A stretch of 64,000 nucleotides of DNA from Prevotella sp. HUN102 (GTDB lineage Bacteria > Bacteroidota > Bacteroidia > Bacteroidales > Bacteroidaceae): NCBI RefSeq assembly GCF_000688375.1, contig NZ_JIAF01000001.1:582301-646300 (forward strand), read 5' to 3'. Shown one piece after another: positions 1-56,230 of the stretch. The translations under genes were made by a program, and so were the position numbers. Below the pieces are notes generated by a model. The model saw nothing but the letters and a program-made list of their open reading frames with translations. It had not been told where the DNA came from and ran no database searches. Position 1 is the stretch's first letter. Each line of letters starts with the position of its first letter.

Positions 1-360
1 TCTTATATCTTCATTCAAAAAAACAATAAATCAGAACATAACTGTTTTTGAGTTCAGATTTTTCTTGAATCTGATAGACATTAAGACTATAAATTAACAG
101 GTTACAATTAAGTCTTCTGTTATGCCCGGAGGAATGAACTAAAGAATAAGGATTGCAGCAATTAGGATAAATAAACAAAATTACCCGTTCATCCATTAAA
201 TTATACATCTATGGATTTTTTGAATGTAGACAAATATTAAGAAAAATAAAAACTATAAATATTATGTAGAGTTATGAAAAAGAAAAGATTAATCATCATT
301 TGTTTTGCGTTATAATTAATATGTGATATGTTCATTGATTAACCTCAAAAATAAACAATT
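1..360. other. left flank, no gene recognised
   Basis: AT-rich sequence without a convincing coding region. A short reading frame on the minus strand (11-208) has no recognisable features. A 13-codon frame at 274-315 starts like a signal peptide and stops at once; it may be a remnant. No clear TAnnTTTG promoter for the recombinase was found here. Confidence 0.5.
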
Positions 361-1383
361 ATGAAATTTAAATTTCTTTCATTATTCAGAATTAGAAAAT
401 CGCAAGACAGCTTTCATACAAAGGCAAAGAAGGTACAAAAGACACCAACTACTTTCGGTTCCTTTCTAAATACAGCATCAAAAGGCCTCAGCATATCTAC
501 AAAGCAAAATTATGAAACAGCTGTACGGTCATTCATCCGTTTCTCTAATGGGAAAGATATTTCCCTTGCTCAGCTCAGTAGTGAATATATCAAGGCTTAC
601 GAACGATGGATGAGAGACAACAATGTCTGTCTCAATACATCTTCCTGTTATCTCCGCTCGCTACGTGCCATTTACAACAAAGCTGTGCTTCAACGGAAAA
701 TCAAGGATTACAAGCCCTTTGACAAAGCTTTCACTGGCAATGAAAAAACTGCTAAACGATGCATCACCGAGAATGAGATACGAAAGATTAAAGCAACGGG
801 TATCAACAACAAAAGTTTTAAAAGAAAGCTTACCTGCGATCTATTTTTATTCTCTTTTTATGCAATGGGAATGCCATTCGTCGATATGGCAAATCTTAGA
901 CAGCATCAAATAAAAGACGGAATACTGACATATTATCGCCGAAAAACAGGCAAACAAGTGAGAGTGAAGATTGAACAATGTATGCAGGATATCATTTTAC
1001 GATATACCACAGAGAAGTCCGATTACGTTTTTCCTATTCTATATAAAATAATAAATAAGAAAATAAGAAAACGCACCTATTCCACTGCGCTCAACCTATA
1101 CAACCAAAATCTGAAACGACTTGCACACGAAGCGAATATAGGCGTAGCACTTACTTCTTATATTTCCCGACATTCATGGGCAAGCATCGCTTACAGCCAT
1201 AACGTAGAGTTACCAGTAATATCGCAGGCTATGGGACATACAGATACCCAAACAACACTTATCTATATAAATGAAATAGGCGATAAGCAAATCGCACAAG
1301 CCAATCATAAAGTTTTGGAGGAAATATTTTCAAGAACTCTTGGTAAGAGGTGTTACACATTCTTAAAAACAATGCAAAGATAG
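361..1383 (+). CDS. tyrosine recombinase, probable DNA invertase of the adjacent promoter switch
   Basis: Site-specific recombinase of the phage-integrase family, 340 aa, with an N-terminal SAM-like core-binding region (about 30-130) and a C-terminal catalytic domain. Visible catalytic elements are Lys195 in YYRRKTGK, Arg270-His271 in SYISRHSWAS, His293 in MGHT and the nucleophile Tyr302 in TTLIYI. The usual Arg I (Bacteroidota integrases often read RGMxFVDMA) is Met169 in YAMGMPFVDMA; loss of Arg I is known for IntDOT, so activity is still plausible. The first His of HxxR is Tyr. Codons 326-331 overlie the left inverted repeat of the invertible segment, so inversion would replace the last ten residues (CYTFLKTMQR) by Tyr-Glu-stop, giving 332 aa with the catalytic core intact. 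The adjacent repeats suggest that it is the local invertase; this is inference. Confidence 0.88.
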   Translation: MKFKFLSLFRIRKSQDSFHTKAKKVQKTPTTFGSFLNTASKGLSISTKQNYETAVRSFIRFSNGKDISLAQLSSEYIKAYERWMRDNNVCLNTSSCYLRSLRAIYNKAVLQRKIKDYKPFDKAFTGNEKTAKRCITENEIRKIKATGINNKSFKRKLTCDLFLFSFYAMGMPFVDMANLRQHQIKDGILTYYRRKTGKQVRVKIEQCMQDIILRYTTEKSDYVFPILYKIINKKIRKRTYSTALNLYNQNLKRLAHEANIGVALTSYISRHSWASIAYSHNVELPVISQAMGHTDTQTTLIYINEIGDKQIAQANHKVLEEIFSRTLGKRCYTFLKTMQR

Positions 1384-1531
1384 ACCTTTTTTTCCATACT
1401 TACAAATAAATTCTGAAAAAATTACTATTCCACAATGAAATCCTAATATAAGAATATCCTAACTATACCTTAATATTATAACCAATTATTTTCTAGGTCA
1501 TTTAGAGATTATTCATACCTCTTACCAAGAG
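1337..1531. mobile_element. putative invertible promoter segment bounded by 15-bp inverted repeats
   Basis: Left repeat 1337-1351 reads CTCTTGGTAAGAGGT. Right repeat 1517-1531 is its exact reverse complement, ACCTCTTACCAAGAG. Each repeat is itself a near-palindrome with a GGT/ACC centre. The 165 bp between them carry a full Bacteroidota promoter on the minus strand and no TAnnTTTG promoter on the plus strand. The segment starts inside the 3' end of a tyrosine recombinase gene and ends 28 bp before the first gene of the surface operon. Phase-variable promoter inversion is known in Bacteroidota (Mpi and Tsr recombinases); its operation here is inferred. Confidence 0.75.
1375..1406 (-). promoter_or_regulatory. 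promoter inside the invertible segment, facing the recombinase
   Basis: On the minus strand TTTG (1406-1403) and TATCTTTG (1382-1375) are separated by 20 nt, an exact match to the Bacteroidota -33/-7 pattern. Predicted start is near 1368, running antisense into the recombinase 3' end. After inversion the -7 box would lie at 1486-1493 with a start near 1500, about 60 nt before the peptide gene at 1560. Confidence 0.75.
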
Positions 1532-1559
1532 GTAAACTAAATATTTTAACAATATTTCT

Positions 1560-1679
1560 ATGGAAAAAAATAAAAAACAGACATATCTCCAACCTCAAAT
1601 CAGCATTATAGCCGTAGAGAAAGAGACCCCAATGTTTGCCACTGAATGGAGTACACCACTCAAACAGAAAACAACATAA
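1560..1679 (+). CDS. small peptide, 39 aa, first gene after the invertible promoter
   Basis: Short reading frame beginning MEKNKKQTYLQPQISII, without a signal peptide or membrane segment. It shares the pattern KK..Y..PQ..II with the 64-aa product at 4720-4914, so both belong to the short lysine/PQ-start peptide class that I associate with surface-protein loci in Prevotella-like genomes. It lies 28 bp after the right inverted repeat, where a flipped promoter would first read. The upstream region is AT-rich without a Shine-Dalgarno sequence, normal for this phylum. Function unknown. Confidence 0.55.
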   Translation: MEKNKKQTYLQPQISIIAVEKETPMFATEWSTPLKQKTT

Positions 1680-1751
1680 TCACTTGTAAACCATAGTAAC
1701 TACAAGAAAAGATCTGTATTACCAAAAGAAGTAAAAGTAGAGCACAAGAGG

Positions 1752-1814
1752 TAGCTGACAAGTACGATACTTGTCAGCTATAAGTTGCATACTTATGAAG
1801 TACTACTTCCTTAC
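1752..1814. repeat. three consecutive hairpins before the HU-like gene
   Basis: A perfect 13-bp inverted repeat (1752-1764 with 1768-1780, core TAGCTGACAAGTA, 3-nt spacer) is followed by ATAAGT/ACTTAT arms and by GAAGTA-C-TACTTC. No U-run follows, so it is not a typical terminator. It could be an operator, an mRNA processing or attenuation element, or a recombination site. CAAGAGGTA at 1745-1753, beside the first stem, matches 9 bp of the right inversion repeat. Confidence 0.6.
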
Positions 1815-1854
1815 TTGTTGAAAAGCTAACTAATAACTTCATAAAAATAAGATT

Positions 1855-2319
1855 ATGGCATTTTACAAAAAAGTATTGAAGAAAATCAACAACAAATGGT
1901 ACCCACAATCGGTACTCGTGGGTAAGCCTATTACAACCGAGCAAATTGCAAAGCGACTTGCCACAGAATCAACTGTAAGCCCTGCCGACGTACGAGCAGT
2001 GCTTACTGCTCTTGGCAGTGTGATGGGCGACTATATGGCACAGGGACGTTCCGTAAAATTAGACGGCATAGGTACATTCTATTTCACTGCTACTGCATCC
2101 AAGAATGGTGTAGAAACAAAGGAAAAAGTTACAGCCAATCAAATCAATGGCGTGCGAGTACGTTTCGTGCCGGAGACCTATTTCCGTCGTACATCAGGCA
2201 CCAGGATTGCCACACGCACCTTGACCGATACCAACATCTATTGGGAAGAATGGCATGAGACTGACGAACCAAATCACTCCAGTAAGGATTCTGAATCAGA
2301 AGAGGACTCTAATCCATAA
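1855..2319 (+). CDS. HU/DNABII-family DNA-binding protein
   Basis: 154-aa protein of the HU-like family common in Bacteroidota. Residues about 20-125 carry the helical start (ITTEQIAKRLATESTVSPAD), the dimer core and the GIGTF turn typical of HU; the tail is acidic (SKDSESEEDSNP). It is longer than classical HU (about 90 aa), as usual for the HU-HIG class. It probably binds or bends DNA in the nucleoid. Between a recombinase switch and surface genes it could act as an accessory bending factor for inversion or as a local regulator; this is inference. No TAnnTTTG promoter is visible between 1680 and 1854, consistent with transcription from the invertible promoter. Confidence 0.8.
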   Translation: MAFYKKVLKKINNKWYPQSVLVGKPITTEQIAKRLATESTVSPADVRAVLTALGSVMGDYMAQGRSVKLDGIGTFYFTATASKNGVETKEKVTANQINGVRVRFVPETYFRRTSGTRIATRTLTDTNIYWEEWHETDEPNHSSKDSESEEDSNP

Positions 2320-2545
2320 CAAGGAAGGAAAAGCGTTTAGTTTCTCAATGAAAAGATCGATTTACAGCCAATTGGATATTCATAAAATGATTATTATCCA
2401 CTTGAAATCATTTTACTGGTTGTTAATATTTCCATATCAGAAAACTTACTGTAAATCAACACATTCCATTTACAAACAACTGTCATTCTGCAGATAATTT
2501 ACAAAACAATAAAATTTTATACAATATTCTTTTAAAACATCTTTT

Positions 2546-4696
2546 ATGAATAAAAATTATTTACAACGAGCGTTATTTTCGCTTATGCTTTTAGTTTCAG
2601 CAACATGGGCAAGAGGACAAGTCAATTCAGGGCAAGACCAGTTGATATTCCATGAGACATTCGATAAGAATTACAACATTGACTTTACCGGTACATCAGC
2701 AGGTTCTGGTTTCGGAGGCTTGTTCGGTGCTTGGACTTGGGACAGCGATGACTACTGGGTGAATAACAGAGACCATTCATCTGGAGGATGGGGGTTTTAT
2801 AAAATGGGACCTGGTCTGAATAGTGTCGTTATGAGAGAGAATGGTGGATACATTACAACTAAACAGCTTGGAGAGATAGATAAAAAAGTCAATGGACGAA
2901 CTTTTCCCGACAAGGATGACATTACGGTAAAGATTAAAATCGGAAAGCCTTTTGGATTGGTAAACTTGCAGGCAGGCATCATCTCAGCAATTTTCAAGAT
3001 ATTTCCTCGTATTACCAATATTAACCTCAAAGGAGCAGGACCCGACACGAAGTGTAGCGCAGACCATCTTTCGATGGGCGGTTGGCGTACAACCTTTTTC
3101 GGCTCTACAACCAAAACCTTCGAAATCAGAAATGCAACGCCGACAACACAGGTCCAGTTTGTAGGCAATATCCAAACCTGTATTTACGACATCCGTTTCT
3201 ATCGTGAAGGAAGACCAACTGACAAGATTTGGAATATTGATGACATAGATGGCAGCATCATAGGAGAAGCCTCTGGTTGGATGTATGGTTATGTGACCCG
3301 TGTAGAAACTCAAAAACATAAGGTTAAGGTCATGGAGGGCGGAAAGGAAGTAGAAAAAGATGAAAACATCTATACCTTGATTATCAGAAAAGACTTCAAC
3401 GATTTCAGTAAGGAAGTGGCAGTTCCTCTCTACAACAAGACATTTGAAATCAAGAAGAAAGCTATAACCTTAGAGGAAGCAAAAGAATTGCCTTTCAGTG
3501 CAGAACAGTATGTGGGTATCAATAAACTTAAAAACATTCATTCAGCTGGAGATTTAATAAACAGCAAGGTTCTGTTCCACGCAACATTCAACAAAGATAC
3601 GGGACAAAAACTCTACAGATGGCTTGATGACAAGAAAAAGAATTGGGAATATATAGACAACTGGAAAGAACCAGTAGCTGATGTCGACCGAATGCTCGTC
3701 ATGACCCCTCTATACTCTGAGTTGACAGATTATCGTATGAAGGATAGTGACATCAAATATATGAATTCCGTATTCTCATTCGATGGTAAAGGTGTCATAA
3801 ATGGAAAGGAATATGATGGAGTTTCAAAAAATCATCTGTTCTATGTCCTTAATACCTCCGATGATGCCGTACGCGAGATAGATAATGTTATTTCCGTTCA
3901 CTATGATGCCATAAATGCTGGAAACGACGATACTTCCTTGGCAAGTCTTCCTAATCAAGGGACAGCAACAAAAATTTCACTGACAGATGCGGGAAACAAT
4001 AAGGATTTTTGGAACTTGTACGACGCAGAGGTAGCCGGAAACCTTCCTACATTCGACCGTGACATCAGCAAGAATGGTTCTGTAAAATCTTTCATCTCTC
4101 CATTTGATGTAACTTACGACAAGGATGCTTTCACAGCATATTCATTCAACCCCTCCAACGTTTCCTATACCAAAAGTACAGCACGCATCATAATGAAAGA
4201 AACAATAGATAATCCACTTAAAGCCAATCATCCATATATGCTTGTGCCTAAAAATCCTAATGACGGATATCAAGTCATTGCAGCAAACAGCAAAATTGCA
4301 ATATCAGAGTTTCCGACAAAACGTACAGGTTGGACTCTCACAGGTACATTTCGTAAACTCAGCAATGCTGAAGCTGCAAAATATGGAGCAGTAGTGCTAA
4401 GCAATGGTAAGCTCTATGCAATTGAAAGTGGAACTGACAGCTATGTGCCTGCATTAAGAAGTTTCATAGAGAGTGCTCCTGGCTTTGAGGTAAAACCAAC
4501 AACTGCCGGTGTCAAAAGTTTTATCCTTTCTTTCCAGTCTCTCGATGCAGAGGGAACGACTAGTGTTGAGAATCTGTCGTTCGCAGACAAGAAGCCTTTG
4601 CCAATCTATTCCATCAATGGTGTTTACCTCGGAACTGATTTTGATGCTTTGCCCAAAGGCATATACATTGTAAATAACCACAAGATAGCTAAATAA
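2546..4696 (+). CDS. large secreted surface protein with Por-like C-terminal tail
   Basis: 716 aa. An N-terminal signal peptide (MNKNYLQRALFSLMLLVSAT, cleavage near ARGQ) is followed by an aromatic- and glycine-rich region (about 30-210) that looks like a beta-sandwich, then mixed beta sequence. The last 30 residues (IYSINGVYLG ... LPKGIYIVNNHKIAK) match the Y-x-x-NG...GIYIV tail also present on the proteins at 27312-29222 and 42350-42958; such tails resemble type IX secretion sorting domains. The 226 bp upstream have no exact TAnnTTTG promoter, so it is probably read through from the invertible promoter. No enzyme motif is recognised; an adhesin or structural role is a guess. Confidence 0.7.
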   Translation: MNKNYLQRALFSLMLLVSATWARGQVNSGQDQLIFHETFDKNYNIDFTGTSAGSGFGGLFGAWTWDSDDYWVNNRDHSSGGWGFYKMGPGLNSVVMRENGGYITTKQLGEIDKKVNGRTFPDKDDITVKIKIGKPFGLVNLQAGIISAIFKIFPRITNINLKGAGPDTKCSADHLSMGGWRTTFFGSTTKTFEIRNATPTTQVQFVGNIQTCIYDIRFYREGRPTDKIWNIDDIDGSIIGEASGWMYGYVTRVETQKHKVKVMEGGKEVEKDENIYTLIIRKDFNDFSKEVAVPLYNKTFEIKKKAITLEEAKELPFSAEQYVGINKLKNIHSAGDLINSKVLFHATFNKDTGQKLYRWLDDKKKNWEYIDNWKEPVADVDRMLVMTPLYSELTDYRMKDSDIKYMNSVFSFDGKGVINGKEYDGVSKNHLFYVLNTSDDAVREIDNVISVHYDAINAGNDDTSLASLPNQGTATKISLTDAGNNKDFWNLYDAEVAGNLPTFDRDISKNGSVKSFISPFDVTYDKDAFTAYSFNPSNVSYTKSTARIIMKETIDNPLKANHPYMLVPKNPNDGYQVIAANSKIAISEFPTKRTGWTLTGTFRKLSNAEAAKYGAVVLSNGKLYAIESGTDSYVPALRSFIESAPGFEVKPTTAGVKSFILSFQSLDAEGTTSVENLSFADKKPLPIYSINGVYLGTDFDALPKGIYIVNNHKIAK

Positions 4697-4719
4697 TAAC
4701 ATTAAAATATAGAACAATT

Positions 4720-4914
4720 ATGAACAAGAAAAAATATATAGCACCACAGACAGAGATAATACAGCTGAATACTGGAGAAATTCTCGAAGGGCCTTTGGAC
4801 TTAGGCTCCATTCAAGGTGATCCGAAAGGGCTTGGAGGTGAAGGCAGCACTCATCCCGTTGATGCCAAAGAAAACAACTTTCAGTACGAACCATATGAAG
4901 TGTGGAAGGATTAA
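4720..4914 (+). CDS. small peptide, 64 aa, related to the 39-aa peptide upstream
   Basis: Starts MNKKKYIAPQTEIIQL and continues acidic and glycine-rich, without a signal peptide. The start resembles the product of 1560-1679 (KK..Y..PQ..II). It lies 23 bp after the large secreted protein and is followed by a 16-bp hairpin before the lipoprotein gene, so it may sit in the leader region that sets lipoprotein expression. Function unknown. Confidence 0.65.
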   Translation: MNKKKYIAPQTEIIQLNTGEILEGPLDLGSIQGDPKGLGGEGSTHPVDAKENNFQYEPYEVWKD

Positions 4915-4936
4915 ACTGAAACACTAATAAAAACTT

Positions 4937-4979
4937 ATCCCTTATGGTTTGCCAAAACAATCTGCAAATCATAAGGGAT
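4937..4979 (+). terminator. 16-bp hairpin between peptide and lipoprotein genes (attenuator candidate)
   Basis: 4937-4952 pairs with 4964-4979 over 16 bp (one G-T pair) around an 11-nt loop; TACATTTATT follows instead of a pure U-run. It ends 16 bp before the lipoprotein start, so it could limit read-through or cover the initiation region. Confidence 0.6.
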
Positions 4980-4995
4980 TACATTTATTCACAAA

Positions 4996-6867
4996 ATGAA
5001 ACAACTAAAGAAATATATTCTCAATTCAGTGATCATCCTGACAGCCGGGATGACTTTCTACGCCTGTTCCTCTGACAAAGATGAGCTTTTTGACAAAATT
5101 TCTACAACACAGGAAACAACGACAGTCAGCAATATAACAGGAACAATACTGACACCAAAGACTGATTATCCTGATTCTAAAACACACAAAATGCCAACAA
5201 AGGCGTTTCTCATAGGGGCTGATGCCGATGTTCCTGGAATACTGTCAAGTAGTCGATTCACAGCACATTGCCTTATCAAGGTAGCTGGCGATGATGGCAT
5301 AAAACACACAGAAGTAACTATGTCGGCTAAGAGTTCTTCTGACGGTAAGTATACCATTATCGTACAGGATGCCGGAAAAGTGTTCCATAACGCCGTAAAG
5401 CGTAATCCATATGCCAATGAGGAATGGGAAATGGCTATCATTGCCGGTGGTGGAAAATGGGACGAGAGCAGCAAGCGTGTAATCTTCGCAATAGAAGGAA
5501 ATGACGGTGTTTCATCTCACGAAGTCAATCACTTGATTGCACCGTTGACAACAAATTGGACGAAAGTTACAACCAATGGCGATGGCAGCTACAATGTAAA
5601 GTTGATTTTTTCCATCAGAGGAACACTCGTGAGATTAAATGTCAACAACGAGCGTACAGAGGCCTTTCGTGGTGCCGTACGTCTGAATTCAAAGGCACTC
5701 TGCCGTAATATATATTTTGACATGAGTTCGCCAAGTCACAACGGACAATTGGTATGGAAACCACTTGCAAAATATGATAAACCGACCATAGTGACCAACA
5801 GTGCTGTTCCTGCACGCTACGCAAAGCAATTTATATTTTGGGGTATGCCTACAAATGAGCAGACAGAGGCTGAAAATGAATTTACGCCAGATCAGTATGG
5901 TTATACATTCATAAATGAAACCAACGATGAACTGTATCGGCGCAAGGGTGATTTCAAGGAAGGGAAATCAACCAATCTTTCCTTACGCATCGCCAATATC
6001 AAACTGCCGATTGAATACTTTGATAAGAATAACTATACGAGGCATTCCAAATGGGCATTTACAAACACTTCATATAATAACCAGTCATATTATGTCTACA
6101 ACCGGGCCTTGGACATTCTTACCGACTTAGACAAGCAGAATAAGGACTGGCATGTGCCAAGCGTTTTTGAATGGGCTGCCATTGTCCCGCGTTCACACGG
6201 GTATACAGAAGAAGCTGCTTCTCGTCCGCTCATTTATCTTGATGGTAAGAGCAATCATCGTAAACGTATGGAGCAAAATGAGGAAGTGGAAAGTCCACGA
6301 AATAACTTTACCACTTATCGTTCAGAATATATCAACATTAGAAAGGGTGTAAACTATGCCGTACGATTTGCACCCCCAACTGCAAAGGTACGTTGGCGAA
6401 GTGCTGCGAGCTACAATGCTTCCTTCCATTCCAAGCCAATACCTTTTGCCAAAGATTATCGATACTATTCAGCTTATAAATATGAAGTTGTAGAGGATGC
6501 CGGAAACGGGCAGCGAGGGCTTCTTGTTACCGTACGCTATTTAGGAGAAGGTGGGAAGCATATAACCTTAAAAGATATTAACGATGAATTCTGGAACAAT
6601 CCTGCACCATCGGGTATCAATGATGTTAAGATATCTTTCCCCTTCTATGGCTATATGGATCAAGGCATCATTAATAAGAAAGTGAAGCAACAAGGAGAAG
6701 CCTGCTATTATTGGACGGTTACTCCCGGAGGCTCACTTGTTCCTCTGGGAGGTTGGATGACTTACATTACTGCTGCGCGTTCTATCAGTTTGCGAGACTA
6801 TCAACTCAATGAAACTCACGACGGCCGACAATACAGATATCTGCTTCGACTTGTGTCCTCTAAATAA
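4996..6867 (+). CDS. surface lipoprotein, fimbrillin/FISUMP-like
   Basis: 623 aa. A lipoprotein signal ends at Cys24 (TFYAC) and is followed by SSDKDE, an acidic stretch compatible with surface export in Bacteroidota. The middle (about 60-300) is beta-rich and fimbrillin-like. The C-terminal half has the pattern of a major-paralogous (FISUMP) or similar domain, with DWHVPSVFEWAAIVPRSHGY near 385-405 and VRWRSAAS near 475. I infer an outer-membrane anchored tip or accessory adhesin. It is the last large gene of the set downstream of the invertible promoter, which makes phase variation of this exposed protein plausible. Confidence 0.65.
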   Translation: MKQLKKYILNSVIILTAGMTFYACSSDKDELFDKISTTQETTTVSNITGTILTPKTDYPDSKTHKMPTKAFLIGADADVPGILSSSRFTAHCLIKVAGDDGIKHTEVTMSAKSSSDGKYTIIVQDAGKVFHNAVKRNPYANEEWEMAIIAGGGKWDESSKRVIFAIEGNDGVSSHEVNHLIAPLTTNWTKVTTNGDGSYNVKLIFSIRGTLVRLNVNNERTEAFRGAVRLNSKALCRNIYFDMSSPSHNGQLVWKPLAKYDKPTIVTNSAVPARYAKQFIFWGMPTNEQTEAENEFTPDQYGYTFINETNDELYRRKGDFKEGKSTNLSLRIANIKLPIEYFDKNNYTRHSKWAFTNTSYNNQSYYVYNRALDILTDLDKQNKDWHVPSVFEWAAIVPRSHGYTEEAASRPLIYLDGKSNHRKRMEQNEEVESPRNNFTTYRSEYINIRKGVNYAVRFAPPTAKVRWRSAASYNASFHSKPIPFAKDYRYYSAYKYEVVEDAGNGQRGLLVTVRYLGEGGKHITLKDINDEFWNNPAPSGINDVKISFPFYGYMDQGIINKKVKQQGEACYYWTVTPGGSLVPLGGWMTYITAARSISLRDYQLNETHDGRQYRYLLRLVSSK

Positions 6868-6904
6868 GACATACATATTTTCTAACAAAGATTAGTCATC
6901 AGGG

Positions 6905-6967
6905 GCGAAGGTGTGATAATAGTTTTTAAATTGTATAAACTAACCGTAAAATCTTTTCAGCCTTCGC
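6905..6967 (+). other. structured intergenic element after the lipoprotein gene
   Basis: GCGAAGG (6905-6911) pairs with CCTTCGC (6961-6967), and TAGTTT (6920-6925) with AAACTA (6937-6942) inside it. This two-level fold ends 20 bp before a 49-aa membrane protein gene. It could be a 3'-UTR terminator without a U-run or a leader element. Confidence 0.4.
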
Positions 6968-6987
6968 TCCATTATATCTAAAAAATT

Positions 6988-7137
6988 ATGGCTAAAAGAT
7001 ATACCAGTTTTATTTATGAAAGAAGAATGAGGAAAAGACAAAGAATACATAAGATAAAACTATTTGTTTTTTATTTCCTGATTATCATTTCAATCATTAT
7101 CCTGTTATGGTGTGCCTATCTTTACAGCTATGATTGA
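6988..7137 (+). CDS. small single-pass membrane protein, 49 aa
   Basis: Begins with a strongly basic segment (ERRMRKRQRIHKIK) and continues with one hydrophobic helix of about 20 residues (LFVFYFLIIISIIILLW). Positive-inside topology predicts a cytoplasmic N-terminus. Nothing links it to a named family. It lies 120 bp after the lipoprotein and may be the end of the same transcription unit. It could be a chance frame, but the charge/hydrophobic layout favours a real gene. Confidence 0.5.
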   Translation: MAKRYTSFIYERRMRKRQRIHKIKLFVFYFLIIISIIILLWCAYLYSYD

Positions 7138-7316
7138 GAATTCATTTCATCTTTCAGGACACTAATCTCGTACTATCTGACAATTATATTCAACCAAACT
7201 TACCAGAACTTAACTACCTACAACTTTCTTTTGATGAATATCTCTTTCTGTCTAATTGCCTTTTGAGAGAGAATGAATCATTGACTCCTCATATTTTACA
7301 ATAAAACAGTATCTTC

Positions 7317-7347
7317 TTTGCGATGTCATTCTTTTTAGCTACCTTTG
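7317..7347 (+). promoter_or_regulatory. promoter of the lnb-like gene, near-leaderless
   Basis: TTTG (7317-7320), 19-nt spacer and TACCTTTG (7340-7347) fit the Bacteroidota consensus exactly. The start is expected near 7354, three bases before the chosen ATG at 7357. Confidence 0.75.
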
Positions 7348-7356
7348 CGACGCAAA

Positions 7357-8529
7357 ATGAAGAAGAGTACACTATATATAATGTTATGCGCCTTGCTTTC
7401 AGTATTCCAACTGGGTGCAAAGGCTCAGAACCTATCGTACTCTGACTCTGTCGAGATTTCCTTGCTTACTTGTTCGCCGGGCAAAGAGGTATGGGCGCAA
7501 TACGGTCATACGGCCATCAGATACAATGACAGGATTAACGGCAACGACCTCGCCGTAAACTATGGTCTGTTCTCGCAGGACCAGCCCAACTTTATCCTCC
7601 GTTTCATCTTCGGACTGACCGACTATCGTGTCGGCATTCAGCCTATGGCACTCTTTATGGCACAGTATGCTTACGAGGAAAGGGGCGTCGTGGAGCAGGT
7701 TCTCAACCTTACAGATGATGAAAAGTTAGCCATCTATCGGGCTTTGGAAACGAATCTCCGTCCGGAAAACGTGGTGTATCGCTATAATTTCTTCTACGAC
7801 AACTGCACCACAAGAGCGCAGCACGTGTTGCTGGACTCCTTGAATAGCGGCGTCGTAAGCGACTGGAACAAAGCACACAAGATGCCTACCTATCGTGAGA
7901 TGATTCACGAATGGAACAAGGATTACCAATGGGCGCAGTTCGGCGAAGACCTTCTGATAGGTCTGAAAGCCGATATGGCATTGGAGAAAGAAGAGCGGCA
8001 GCTCTTTCTGCCCGATAATCTCAGGAAATACATCGGTGCCGCCACACACAACGGCCGCGCTCTGGTAAGGGAAACGAATGTGCTCATAGAAACGCCTGCG
8101 ATGGTTCCGGAAAAGGGGTTTCCACTTTCGCCTCATCAGGTGGCGTCTATCTTTGCTTTCATTTCGGCAATAATCCTCGCATACGAATGGAAAACAAGGA
8201 AACTGCTGTGGGGCTGGGACTTGTTCCTGATGCTTGTTTCGGGCATCATCGGGCTTGTTCTGTTTGCAATGATTTTCTCAGAGCATCCCTGTGTCAGCCT
8301 GAATATGATAATCTTTTTCTTCAATCCTCTTCCGCTGCTGTTCCTTTACAGAGCCATCAGAAAAGAGAGGAAGAGAGAACGCGACTGGTGGTGGCTGCTT
8401 TGGGGCGTGCTCATCGTCATCGGAATCGGCGGAGCGTTTTTCCAACGCATTCCCATTCCGGTACTGATTGTGGCACTGTTCTTGCTTTTAAACTGTATCA
8501 CGCATCACGCAATACAACAGAAGAGATAA
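7357..8529 (+). CDS. Lnb-type lipoprotein N-acyltransferase (DUF4105)
   Basis: 390 aa from the ATG at 7357; a TTG four codons upstream lies inside the promoter -7 box and is rejected. After a signal peptide (cleavage near AKAQ) comes the DUF4105 periplasmic domain with GHTAIR (His51) and FFYDNCTTR (Cys150), the His/Cys pair expected of the catalytic site, and then about four C-terminal membrane segments. Family knowledge: DUF4105 proteins of Bacteroides were identified as Lnb, which adds the third acyl chain to lipoproteins. Cell-envelope location is expected. The following gene starts 11 bp downstream, suggesting an operon. Confidence 0.72.
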   Translation: MKKSTLYIMLCALLSVFQLGAKAQNLSYSDSVEISLLTCSPGKEVWAQYGHTAIRYNDRINGNDLAVNYGLFSQDQPNFILRFIFGLTDYRVGIQPMALFMAQYAYEERGVVEQVLNLTDDEKLAIYRALETNLRPENVVYRYNFFYDNCTTRAQHVLLDSLNSGVVSDWNKAHKMPTYREMIHEWNKDYQWAQFGEDLLIGLKADMALEKEERQLFLPDNLRKYIGAATHNGRALVRETNVLIETPAMVPEKGFPLSPHQVASIFAFISAIILAYEWKTRKLLWGWDLFLMLVSGIIGLVLFAMIFSEHPCVSLNMIIFFFNPLPLLFLYRAIRKERKRERDWWWLLWGVLIVIGIGGAFFQRIPIPVLIVALFLLLNCITHHAIQQKR

Positions 8530-8540
8530 AATAACTGTCA

Positions 8541-8900
8541 ATGAATAAGTATATTACCGCGCTGCTCGTAGTTTTGGCAGCAACTGGCGTAGAAGCACAG
8601 ACCTATCAGTCTGCGCTCAAAGCGGCATTGGGTAATTGCAGCATTGAGGAAATCTGCCATCAGGTTGAGCTTCGGGGCGTAGAAACAGACATTCTGTCAG
8701 TCATCGAGGCTTACAAGAACATATCTAAAGAGGAAAAGAAAGAGCCGTCCGGCAAAAATGCACTTGCACTCTCCGACAGAAACGAGGCGAAACGCATTGA
8801 GGAAGGCGTCTTTACACGTTATAAGAAAGAATTGTCCCTTTATCTTCCGAATCCTTCTGTCAATTCGGGAATTATTATCCGTGCGCCGAGTGCAGCCTGA
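8541..8900 (+). CDS. small secreted protein, unknown function
   Basis: 119 aa. A signal peptide (MNKYITALLVVLAATGVEAQ) is followed by a helical, charged region and a short C-terminal segment. One Cys pair (NCSIEEIC) could form a disulfide. No family recognised. It is 11 bp behind the lnb-like gene and 79 bp before secA, so it is probably co-transcribed with lnb. Confidence 0.65.
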   Translation: MNKYITALLVVLAATGVEAQTYQSALKAALGNCSIEEICHQVELRGVETDILSVIEAYKNISKEEKKEPSGKNALALSDRNEAKRIEEGVFTRYKKELSLYLPNPSVNSGIIIRAPSAA

Positions 8901-8979
8901 CATTTCGGGTATCGCAGCACAAGGAGCTGCACAATAAAATTATAAACAAAGGAAATACTTTTCTTAAAGCATACAAACA

Positions 8980-11900
8980 ATGAATTTCAATAAAATATTA
9001 AAGTCGCTTTTCGGCGACAAGTCCACACGTGATATGAAACTTATTCAGCCTTTCGTAGAGAAAGTAAAGGCTGAATACCCTGCAATCAAGGAACTTAGCA
9101 ACGACGAACTTCGTGCCAAGACCAAGGAAATACAGCAGTATGTGCAGGATGCAGGCAAGGCACAGCGCGAGGAAATTGAGAAACTGCGCGAGGAAATAGA
9201 GAAAACGCCTATCGATGAGCGTGAAGAAATCTTCAACAAAATCGACAAACTCGACAAGGAAGCACTCGAAAACTACGAGACTGCCCTCAACGAGGTAATG
9301 CCGGTGGCCTTCTCCATCGTGAAGGATACAGCACGCCGATTTGCCGAAAACGAAGAAACCATCGTAACGGCGACTGATTTCGACCGCGAACTCGCTGCCG
9401 ACCCACGCAAGGACTTCATCACGATAGACGGCGACAAGGCTATCTATCACAATCATTGGACTGCCGGAGGCAACGACCTGAAGTGGGAAATGGTTCACTA
9501 CGACGTGCAGCTCTTCGGTGGTACGGTGCTCCATCAGGGTAAGATTGCCGAAATGGCAACGGGTGAGGGTAAGACACTTGTGGCTACGCTGCCGGTGTTC
9601 CTCAATGCACTGACGGGCAACGGCGTTCACGTCGTAACCGTGAACGACTATCTTGCAAAGCGCGACTCCGAGTGGATGGGTCCGCTCTATATGTTCAACG
9701 GTCTTTCGGTAGACTGTATCGACAAGCATCAGCCTAACTCTGAGGCACGCCGCAGGGCATATCAGGCCGACATTACTTTCGGTACGAACAATGAGTTCGG
9801 TTTCGACTACCTCCGCGATAATATGGCTGTGTCGCCTTCCGACCTCGTTCAGCGTCAGCACAACTATGCCATTGTCGATGAGGTGGACTCCGTTTTGATT
9901 GACGATGCACGTACACCTCTTATTATTAGTGGTCCTGTGCCGAAGGGCGAAGACCAGATGTATGAGGAATATCAGCCATTGGTGCAGAAACTGTTCGAGG
10001 TTCAGCGCAAGCAGGCAACAGAACTGCTTTCCGAAGCTCGCCACAAGATAGCAGAAGCAGGCAAACTGACAGACGACAAGGCACGCTCTGCAATGCTCGA
10101 AGAGGGATTCCTCGCACTCTATCGTTCTCATAAGGCGTTGCCAAAGAATAAGGCACTCATCAAATTCCTGTCGGAAGACGGCATCAAGTCGGGAATGCTC
10201 AAGACCGAGGAGTTCTATATGGCAAACAACAACCGTGAAATGCCGAAGGCTATCGAACCGTTGTTCTTCGTTACCGACGAAAAGATGAACTCAAGCGACC
10301 TTACCGACAAGGGTGCTGCGTGGTTGGCGAAGGAAGTTAATGACGATAAACTCTTCGTTTTACCTGACATTACGACAGAATTGTCGCTCCTTGAAAAGGA
10401 AAAGGACGAGAAGAAAATCGACGAACAGACCTATATCGACAAGAAAGACGACCTGATGAGCTTCTATGGCGTGCAGAGCGAGCGCGTCCATACGCTTCAG
10501 CAGCTCCTCAAGGCATACACAATGTTCAACAAGGATGATGAATACGTGGTTCTTGACGGCGAAGTGAAAATCGTAGACGAGCAGACAGGCCGTATTATGG
10601 ACGGTCGCCGATGGAGCGATGGTCTGCATCAGGCCGTTGAAGCCAAGGAACACGTGAAGGTGGAGGCTGCAACGCAGACTTTTGCCACAATCACTTTGCA
10701 GAACTACTTCCGTATGTACCACAAGCTCGCAGGTATGACCGGTACTGCTTCCACCGAGGCAGGCGAGTTCTGGGACATTTATAAACTCGACGTTGTTGAG
10801 ATTCCTACCAACCGTCCTATCGCCCGTAAGGATATGGACGACCGTGTCTACAAGACTGCACGCGAGAAATACGCAGCCGTAATCGAGGAAGTGGAAGCAA
10901 TGCGCAACAGCGGCCGTCCTTGCCTTGTGGGTACAACATCCGTTGAAATCAGCGAACTCTTGAGTAAGATGCTGAATATGCGCAAGATACCTCATCAAGT
11001 ATTGAACGCCAAGCAGCACCTGAAGGAAGCACAGATTGTTGCCGACGCAGGCCGTTCTATCGACGGCAAGGGTGCCGTAACCATCGCTACCAATATGGCG
11101 GGCCGTGGTACGGACATCAAACTCTCACAAGAGGTTAAAGACGCAGGTGGTTTGGCAATCATCGGTACGGAACGCCACGAGAGCCGCCGCGTAGACCGTC
11201 AGCTGCGTGGCCGTGCCGGTCGTCAGGGCGACCCGGGTTCTTCCGTATTCTATGTTTCGCTCGAAGACAAACTGATGCGTCTGTTCGGTTCAGAACGCAT
11301 TGCAAAGGTAATGGACAGGCTCGGTTTCGACGAAGGAGAGCGTATCGAATCCTCTATGATTTCGAGCAGCATCGAGCGTGCTCAGAAGAAAGTCGAGGAA
11401 AACAACTTTGGTATTCGTAAGCGTCTGTTGGAATACGATGACGTTATGAACAAGCAGCGTACCGTTATTTACGAAAAACGTCGCCACGCCTTGATGGGAG
11501 AGCGCATCGGTATGGATATTTCCAACGTCATTTGGGACCGTTGCGTGAACATCATACAGAACAACGACTACGAAGGTTGCAAGGAAGAGTTCCTCAAGGT
11601 ATTGGCAATGGAATGCCCATTCTCTGAAACAGAACTTGCAACAGCAAGCAAGGACGAGCTTGCAGAGCGCAGTTTTCAGGCTGCCATCGATACTTTCGAG
11701 CGCAAGACTGAGCGAATCCAGACTGTTGCGTGGCCGGTTATCAAGGATATTTACGAGAATCAGGGCGCAATCTACGAAAGAATTATGGTGCCAATCACAG
11801 ACGGCAAGCGCGTCTACAACATTCCTTGCAACCTCAAGGAGGCATACGACTCTGAAGGTAAGGATGTTGTGAAGCAGTTTGAAAAGGTCATCCTCCTCCA

Positions 11901-55950: not shown

Positions 55951-55970
55951 GTCTGTGAATGGGCTTCTTG

Positions 55971-56230
55971 CAGATTTCGCAAATCACGCGAATCTACAAA
56001 CTGAATCTCCAAAGATAAATCTGCGTCATCTGCGAAATTTGCGTGAGATATATTCTCACAGATTGCGCAGATTACGCAAATCTATGAAGTAAGACCAAAA
56101 AGATAAATCAGCGAGATTCGCGAAATCAGCGAGAAATATTCTCTCGTAAATTGCACAGATTATGCGAATCTATGAGATAAAACAAAATATGAATCAGCGA
56201 GATTTGCGAAATCTGCGAGAGTCACTCTTC
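55971..56230. repeat. CAGATT/CGCGAAATC tandem repeat, three units of about 88 bp
   Basis: Units start near 55979, 56068 and 56156. Each has a CAGATTACGCAAATCT-like half and a partly complementary AGCGAGATTCGCGAAATC half, so each can fold. It fills the gap between rpsA and the SDR gene. Confidence 0.8.

Follow-up and report, generated by a model that had tools for sequence, protein, structure and literature searches.

A predicted promoter-inversion switch in Prevotella sp. HUN102 whose flip would also edit its own recombinase

Promoter inversion is well known in Bacteroidales, and Bacteroidota promoters follow the consensus TTTG-N20-TAnnTTTG; to our knowledge, what determines the bias of each such switch towards ON or OFF is mostly an open question. 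Here we consider a tyrosine recombinase gene and the short, promoter-bearing segment that it overlaps, at the left end of a 64,000-nucleotide stretch of Prevotella sp. HUN102 (contig NZ_JIAF01000001.1, positions 582,301 to 646,300; this whole stretch is termed the window, and all coordinates are given in its numbering). The closest described systems are those of Bacteroides fragilis. In the account of them available in PMC4747536, Tsr19 (BF2766) flips both a local and a distant promoter, and more copies of the repeat before genes go with lower transcription. The relevant part of the hCom2 survey of invertons (PMC11892184) mentions a described Bacteroidota promoter motif and reports that invertases near invertons generally cannot be driven by the flipped promoter, its group 145 containing recombinases in both drivable and non-drivable orientation.

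The recombinase gene and its associated 195-bp segment very probably make up a promoter-inversion switch, in which the promoter would flip between facing its own recombinase gene (predicted OFF, as sequenced) and facing a predicted surface-protein operon (ON), each flip also exchanging the C-terminal tail of the enzyme. The gene (361–1383, plus strand) encodes a predicted invertase of 340 amino acids, the Pfam matches of which are to tyrosine recombinase domains only (Phage_int_SAM_5, 4.1e-15; Phage_integrase, 4.9e-12). The predicted invertible segment (1337–1531, to which no strand is assigned) is bounded by a left predicted recombination site at 1337–1351 (plus strand; core CTCTTGGTAAGAG) and a right one, its exact inverted copy, at 1517–1531 (minus strand), with 165 bp between the arms. 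These 15-bp repeats, to which a preliminary description of the locus had drawn attention, fall within the top-ranked inverted repeat of positions 1–9000. Between them is a single perfect Bacteroidota promoter, TTTG-N20-TATCTTTG, on the minus strand at 1375–1406 (–7 box 1382–1375) and directed toward the recombinase, and no plus-strand TAnnTTTG was found in 1201–1620, nor anywhere in 1–7339. Inversion would bring the –7 box to 1486–1493 on the plus strand, and the start, which we estimate to be near 1500, would then be about 60 nt ahead of the first gene of the operon (from 1560). On the repeats, on the promoter and its orientation, and on the order of the downstream genes (peptide, HU-like protein, secreted protein, peptide, lipoprotein), the preliminary description was borne out. 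It had also placed the segment after the recombinase gene: the two do adjoin, but the last 47 nt of the gene lie within the segment, where stop codon and promoter overlap.

The adjacent recombinase, then, is predicted to act on the sites at 1337–1351 and 1517–1531. As sequenced, the operon would be silent and the promoter would make RNA antisense to the recombinase; after inversion, the operon would be driven from about 1500; and each flip would replace the recombinase tail CYTFLKTMQR by YE, or the reverse. The antisense transcription, if it occurs, would continue through the recombinase toward minus-strand genes to the left of the window.

A tyrosine recombinase beside its own invertible promoter, upstream of surface genes, is the arrangement described for Tsr19/BF2766 and other Tsr enzymes (as set out in PMC4747536). 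A tyrosine recombinase likewise adjoins the segment here, and the assignment to a switch of the Tsr kind is well supported by comparison, with the structural twist that a flip would edit the recombinase. As with Mpi of B. fragilis, promoter inversion would take place ahead of surface genes, which at this locus are predicted ones. The earlier comparison had been with Mpi and Tsr together, but Mpi, in the same account, is a serine recombinase acting on 13 regions (PMC4747536), so only the Tsr half of it fits this tyrosine recombinase; membership of the Mpi class was rejected. Unlike Tsr19, the window has its left site within the recombinase gene, and, in contrast to Tsr19 with its distant target, the genome has one pair of near-perfect sites; the likeness considered here is one of arrangement. 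Searched with the 15-mer CCTCTTACCAAGAGG, the 3.3-Mb genome gave one exact match and one with one mismatch (these are the two arms), together with seven two-mismatch matches; the reversed control pattern gave 13 matches. As in hCom2 invertons, the invertase is so oriented that the flipped promoter cannot drive it, and it stands near predicted surface-protein genes, but the example of inverton-intersecting genes given in that survey is restriction subunit S, not invertases (PMC11892184).

To place the window locus among its relatives, 13 close loci were considered: that of the window, L071–L075, L215, L226, L227, L231–L233 and L236 (our locus numbers), selected on recombinase identity (about 50% and upward), and not on their repeats. 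L234 and L235, being identical to L074 and L073, were removed before counting, and L021, L050 and L071 are one locus; outside the count stand L128 (50% over a partial match, without a repeat) and L228–L230 (49% by tblastn, without a dyad repeat). Used alone as the query, the recombinase had picked out no relative among named genomes; an alignment-based scan did.

Sites of the form CTCTT-N3-AAGAG were found at the recombinase end, or at most about 50 nt past it, in 13 of 13 close loci. In the window the site is a short dyad with an asymmetric spacer (GGT on the left, ACC on the right). The search pattern left the spacer letters free, and yet in each of the 18 right-hand sites found the spacer was reverse-complementary to that of the left site of its own locus (13 of 13 loci), a match within each locus that strand exchange between the two sites would demand. 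There are six spacer types (GGT in five loci, GCT, GCG and GGC in two each, GGG and ACG in one each), and in the paralogues L073 and L236, which are 89–91% identical over two matched pieces, the spacers differ, both arms together. As expected of a Tsr-type switch, therefore, inverted sites with matching spacers surround one promoter. The distance from the core to TGCAAA, part of the –7 region of the promoter, is 23 nt in ten of the 13, mirrored in L074, and 22 nt in L227. L215, L231, L232 and L074 each have more than one right-hand site (two or three), with the same spacer throughout a locus, recalling the several repeat copies between promoter and genes of the Tsr19 system (as described in PMC4747536); they could yield several segment lengths, as in the B. 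fragilis extracellular polysaccharide (EPS) promoter. The 13 loci are not independent, because they share descent (L215 and L231, for instance, are 93.7% alike in DNA over 2 kb).

It might be supposed that the segment is flipped by another tyrosine recombinase of the genome and that the adjacent gene is not its invertase. One B. fragilis Tsr does also act at a distance (according to PMC4747536), and the HUN102 genome contains 26 further matches to the window recombinase, but these are at most 31% identical to it, and the sites adjoin close relatives of the window gene in 13 of 13 loci; we regard this possibility as very improbable.

The preliminary description missed the fact that the left repeat is within the recombinase open reading frame and in frame with it, coding for part of TLGKR. 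With the left site inside the gene, inversion would swap the C-terminal end of the enzyme. The exchangeable part is 1352–1383 (plus strand), and the two computed ends are LGKR-CYTFLKTMQR-stop (340 amino acids, as sequenced) and LGKR-YE-stop (332 amino acids, inverted). The stop codon TAG at 1381–1383 overlaps the –7 box: read on the opposite strand, TAnnTTTG is CAA-Ann-TA, that is, a glutamine codon, one further codon and the first two letters of a stop, and the Q-R-stop with which the window recombinase ends is supplied in this way. A perfect TAnnTTTG on the other strand provides the stop codon in five loci (window, L215, L226, L231 and L232), TTTG at –33 being imperfect in L215 and L226. At sequence level this is a site in an open reading frame, altering the end of a protein, as in the intragenic inversions of Chanin 2024 (as cited in PMC12632263), but differing from them in that the altered gene is the predicted invertase itself and that the same flip would move a promoter.

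A left site in the gene, with an altered tail, was found in eight of the 13 close loci (window, L071, L075, L215, L226, L227, L231 and L232), so that in these a single inversion would both turn the promoter round and rewrite the recombinase. The computed changes, from the sequenced to the inverted form, are WNRIYNRLQI to V or CER (L215), WNRIYNRLQI to V or CGREGKSSW (L231), WKHFIKSLQR to WNGG (L226), CNYH to CAK (L227) and WAYL to WT (L071). In L232, WNKIFNRMQS would become CGNGRKSSW with the second right-hand site and end LGK-SICL with the first (the third involves masked bases and is unreadable), and L075, which as sequenced has no tail, would gain 48 residues. A limited literature search found no report of recombinase tail exchange by inversion.

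That the switch is real and the exchange a neutral by-product, the site being at the gene end for compactness and the residues after LGKR being dispensable, we consider rather likely. The overlap, though common, is not needed, because five of the 13 loci do without a tail change: in L072, L073, L233 and L236 the recombinase gene ends ahead of the site, and that of L074 ends inside the site with its tail unaltered. (L072–L074 are the three B. heparinolyticus loci, and the genome of L236 also carries identical copies of L073 and L074.) The last letters of the tail follow from the promoter sequence read backwards, and the stretch beyond the catalytic tyrosine is 38 residues long in the window enzyme, the longest among 80 aligned members (median 21). 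These features favour the neutral reading. Against the switch with tail exchange as a whole, the farther right-hand sites of L231 and L232 would give inverted tails of nine residues, nearly the original length. Against the neutral reading, the site remains in frame in eight of 13 loci, encoding LGKR, and a ten-residue tail of similar make-up ending in L/M-Q-x is common to five, albeit that the closely similar L215 and L231 are two of the five. A more speculative proposal, which we think rather unlikely, is that the flip makes a self-editing invertase, the OFF enzyme having a basic tail of ten residues and the ON enzyme a swapped one (in the window, a stub of two residues), so that the state of the switch would set the activity of the enzyme and bias the population to one state. 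Since the flip would also rewrite the recombinase, such built-in feedback from state to switching rate is directly testable.

The association of recombinase and repeats extends beyond the close loci. Dyad repeats were scanned for from –60 to +740 relative to the end of the recombinase match. Loci without a tblastn hit, or with under 600 nt of sequence beyond the gene, were excluded, which removed 8 of the 100 family loci and 10 of the 33 controls. Dyad inverted repeats were present in 41 of 92 family loci, compared with none of 920 dinucleotide shuffles, while distant tyrosine recombinases, used as controls, had one in 1 of 23 (their shuffles, 0 of 230). Grouping at 90% identity left the proportion much the same (39 of 86), and no pair among the 92 was alike at 98%. 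An outward promoter (at most one mismatch, in the last 35% of the segment) was present on exactly one strand in 21 of the 41, facing the recombinase in 16 and downstream in five, and in none on both strands; plain shuffles gave a one-strand outward promoter in 28 of 820. In 38 of 41, the longest open frame of the following 2.5 kb was a plus-strand one.

The promoter faces the recombinase in L072, L073 and L236, and homologous sequence in L074 (a paralogue of L072 and L073 in the same B. heparinolyticus strain) faces the downstream operon. Scores against L074 in the opposite orientation were 52 for L072, 50 for L073 and 44 for L236 (shuffle maxima 27, 28 and 25), and same-orientation scores among the three were 121 (L072/L073), 108 (L072/L236) and 174 (L073/L236). 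The window segment matches that of L072 in the same orientation (score 40, shuffle 24). Both orientations thus occur between paralogues and relatives, the window species being represented by one genome. The search for a flipped form in related genomes, which had been suggested as a check, therefore succeeded for the homologous segment of the B. heparinolyticus paralogues, but not for the window locus itself. Taken together, the spacer matches, the two orientations and the dyad repeats across the family support the original idea of a local promoter-inversion switch.

Several observations weigh against so general an interpretation, or against its application to the window. By the criterion used, 51 of the 92 family loci lack such a repeat, and 20 of the 41 with a repeat have no promoter at the threshold used. 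Eight of the 41 repeats depart from the CTCTT type: four represent a separate dyad in one genome (G024), and four (L081, L082, L084 and L125) are probably other repeats. The inverted form of the window locus itself was not seen, one genome per species having been searched; comparison of the window segment with L071, L073, L074 and L075 gave no match above shuffles; and the promoter call in L075 is weak (a site with two mismatches). Lastly, the enzyme lacks the first catalytic arginine of the canonical set at the normal position, the GLR of an XerC-like protein (4a8e) aligning with GMP at residues 170–172.

In the alignment, K195, R270, H293 and Y302 are invariant (80 of 80 members). Where Xer has its arginine, all 80 have S, P, A or T. 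Residue 169, beside GM, is R in 55 and something else in 25, among them the window enzyme, which has M (YAMGMPF, compared with YTRGMSF). The absence of the arginine from the Xer position, along with promoter positions that make 12 of the 13 close loci OFF-like and only one ON-like, might suggest a decayed switch, locked OFF in this species. Both sites and the promoter are perfect, however, and the reading frame is intact; moreover, the 25 members without R at residue 169 include L074 and L077, both with downstream-facing promoters. Decay is thus improbable, and an operative switch, predicted to be OFF as sequenced, is much the better account.

In a tree of 80 rows, a group supported at 100/99 unites the window enzyme with those of P. 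illustrans, the three B. heparinolyticus loci and Phocaeicola abscessus, and is nested in a set of 23 rows (100/98) containing the six rows initially classed as tail-changing; in two of those six, L079 and L080, the arms match at 19 of 21 positions. Of plasmid records, 46 matched the recombinase, the best place in each being below 60% identity. The promoter stretch has many look-alikes in the genus: positions 1200–1700 are matched in 54 of 398 genomes (its own included), the listed matches being nearly all short and at about 1356–1435. In G024, a genome of the genus, four paralogous recombinases (L065–L067 and L069; the genome has more than ten matches) share an inverted repeat of 19–23 bp, ahead of operons that look fimbrial by eye.

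The switch and its operon form a unit that, to judge from flanking homology and gene order, is an inserted islet of about 7.3 kb (1–7313, to which no strand is assigned; the left edge is about 40 bp before the window), a point absent from the preliminary description. The 435-amino-acid gene to its left and the Lnb gene to its right are adjacent across a short gap in four of four relatives examined (L182–L185), and the Lnb gene was found in 20 other genomes. In the HUN102 genome, homology breaks off about 40 bp to the left of the window and is picked up again near 7314, some 40 bp of L182 being replaced; the right junction in L185, having no DNA-level alignment, is shown by gene order only. The pattern of the right flank was without a match in IMG/VR. 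The adjacency of the flanking genes in all four relatives would also suit a different explanation of the repeats, namely that they served the recombinase in moving the islet and do not form an inversion switch. That explanation we rejected as extremely unlikely: the sites are not at the islet edges, the core pair is the only one in the genome (no further copy with fewer than two mismatches), the only direct repeat of at least 11 bp between the flanks is one AT-rich word, and both orientations of the segment occur in relatives. The promoter-inversion switch of the window would on this evidence have arrived as part of an islet.

The same module of enzyme and sites appears with differing cargo: a fimbrial operon in L072 (DUF3575, DUF5119 and Mfa_like_1 fimbrillin genes), a BspA-type leucine-rich repeat protein in L071 (Prevotella illustrans) and, in the window, an unknown lipoprotein. 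The window operon, all on the plus strand, begins with peptide 1 (1560–1679; 39 amino acids), and in L215, L226 and L231, too, the first gene past the switch encodes a small peptide, by eye of like composition. A perfect 13-bp hairpin (1752–1780, plus strand), with no run of T residues by eye, separates it from the gene for an HU-like DNA-binding protein (1855–2319; TIGR01201 HU_rel, HU-HIG), which has three paralogues (67–70%) elsewhere in the genome; Rfam gave no match in 1300–2600 (E 0.1). There follow a predicted secreted protein (2546–4696; 716 amino acids), whose listed matches within the genus are to the C-terminal part, peptide 2 (4720–4914; 64 amino acids) and a predicted lipoprotein (4996–6867; 623 amino acids), for which the 149 other genomes of the genus gave no match. 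A surface role for this cargo is predicted by eye only, from the signal peptide of the secreted protein and the lipobox FYAC of the lipoprotein, and single-sequence AlphaFold models were uninformative (mean pLDDT 32 for the lipoprotein and 31 for the secreted protein).

Three further features may be mentioned. Within the islet, between the operon and the Lnb gene, a small open reading frame (6988–7137) would encode a basic protein of 49 amino acids, probably membrane-spanning by eye. Only one other exact inverted repeat of at least 15 bp (arms 50–500 bp apart) is present in the window, at 55970/56202; the stretch between its arms yielded no perfect promoter, and a second switch at 55970–56217 was rejected in favour of an intergenic repeat array, consisting of interspersed palindromic repeats with a 16-bp inverted repeat, between genes that by eye are S1-domain-like and short-chain-dehydrogenase-like. 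Elsewhere in the HUN102 genome, two near-identical stretches (L202 and L203; 98.9% over 2.4 kb) each have an HU-like gene beside a gene for a large protein, of 1114 and 1118 amino acids.

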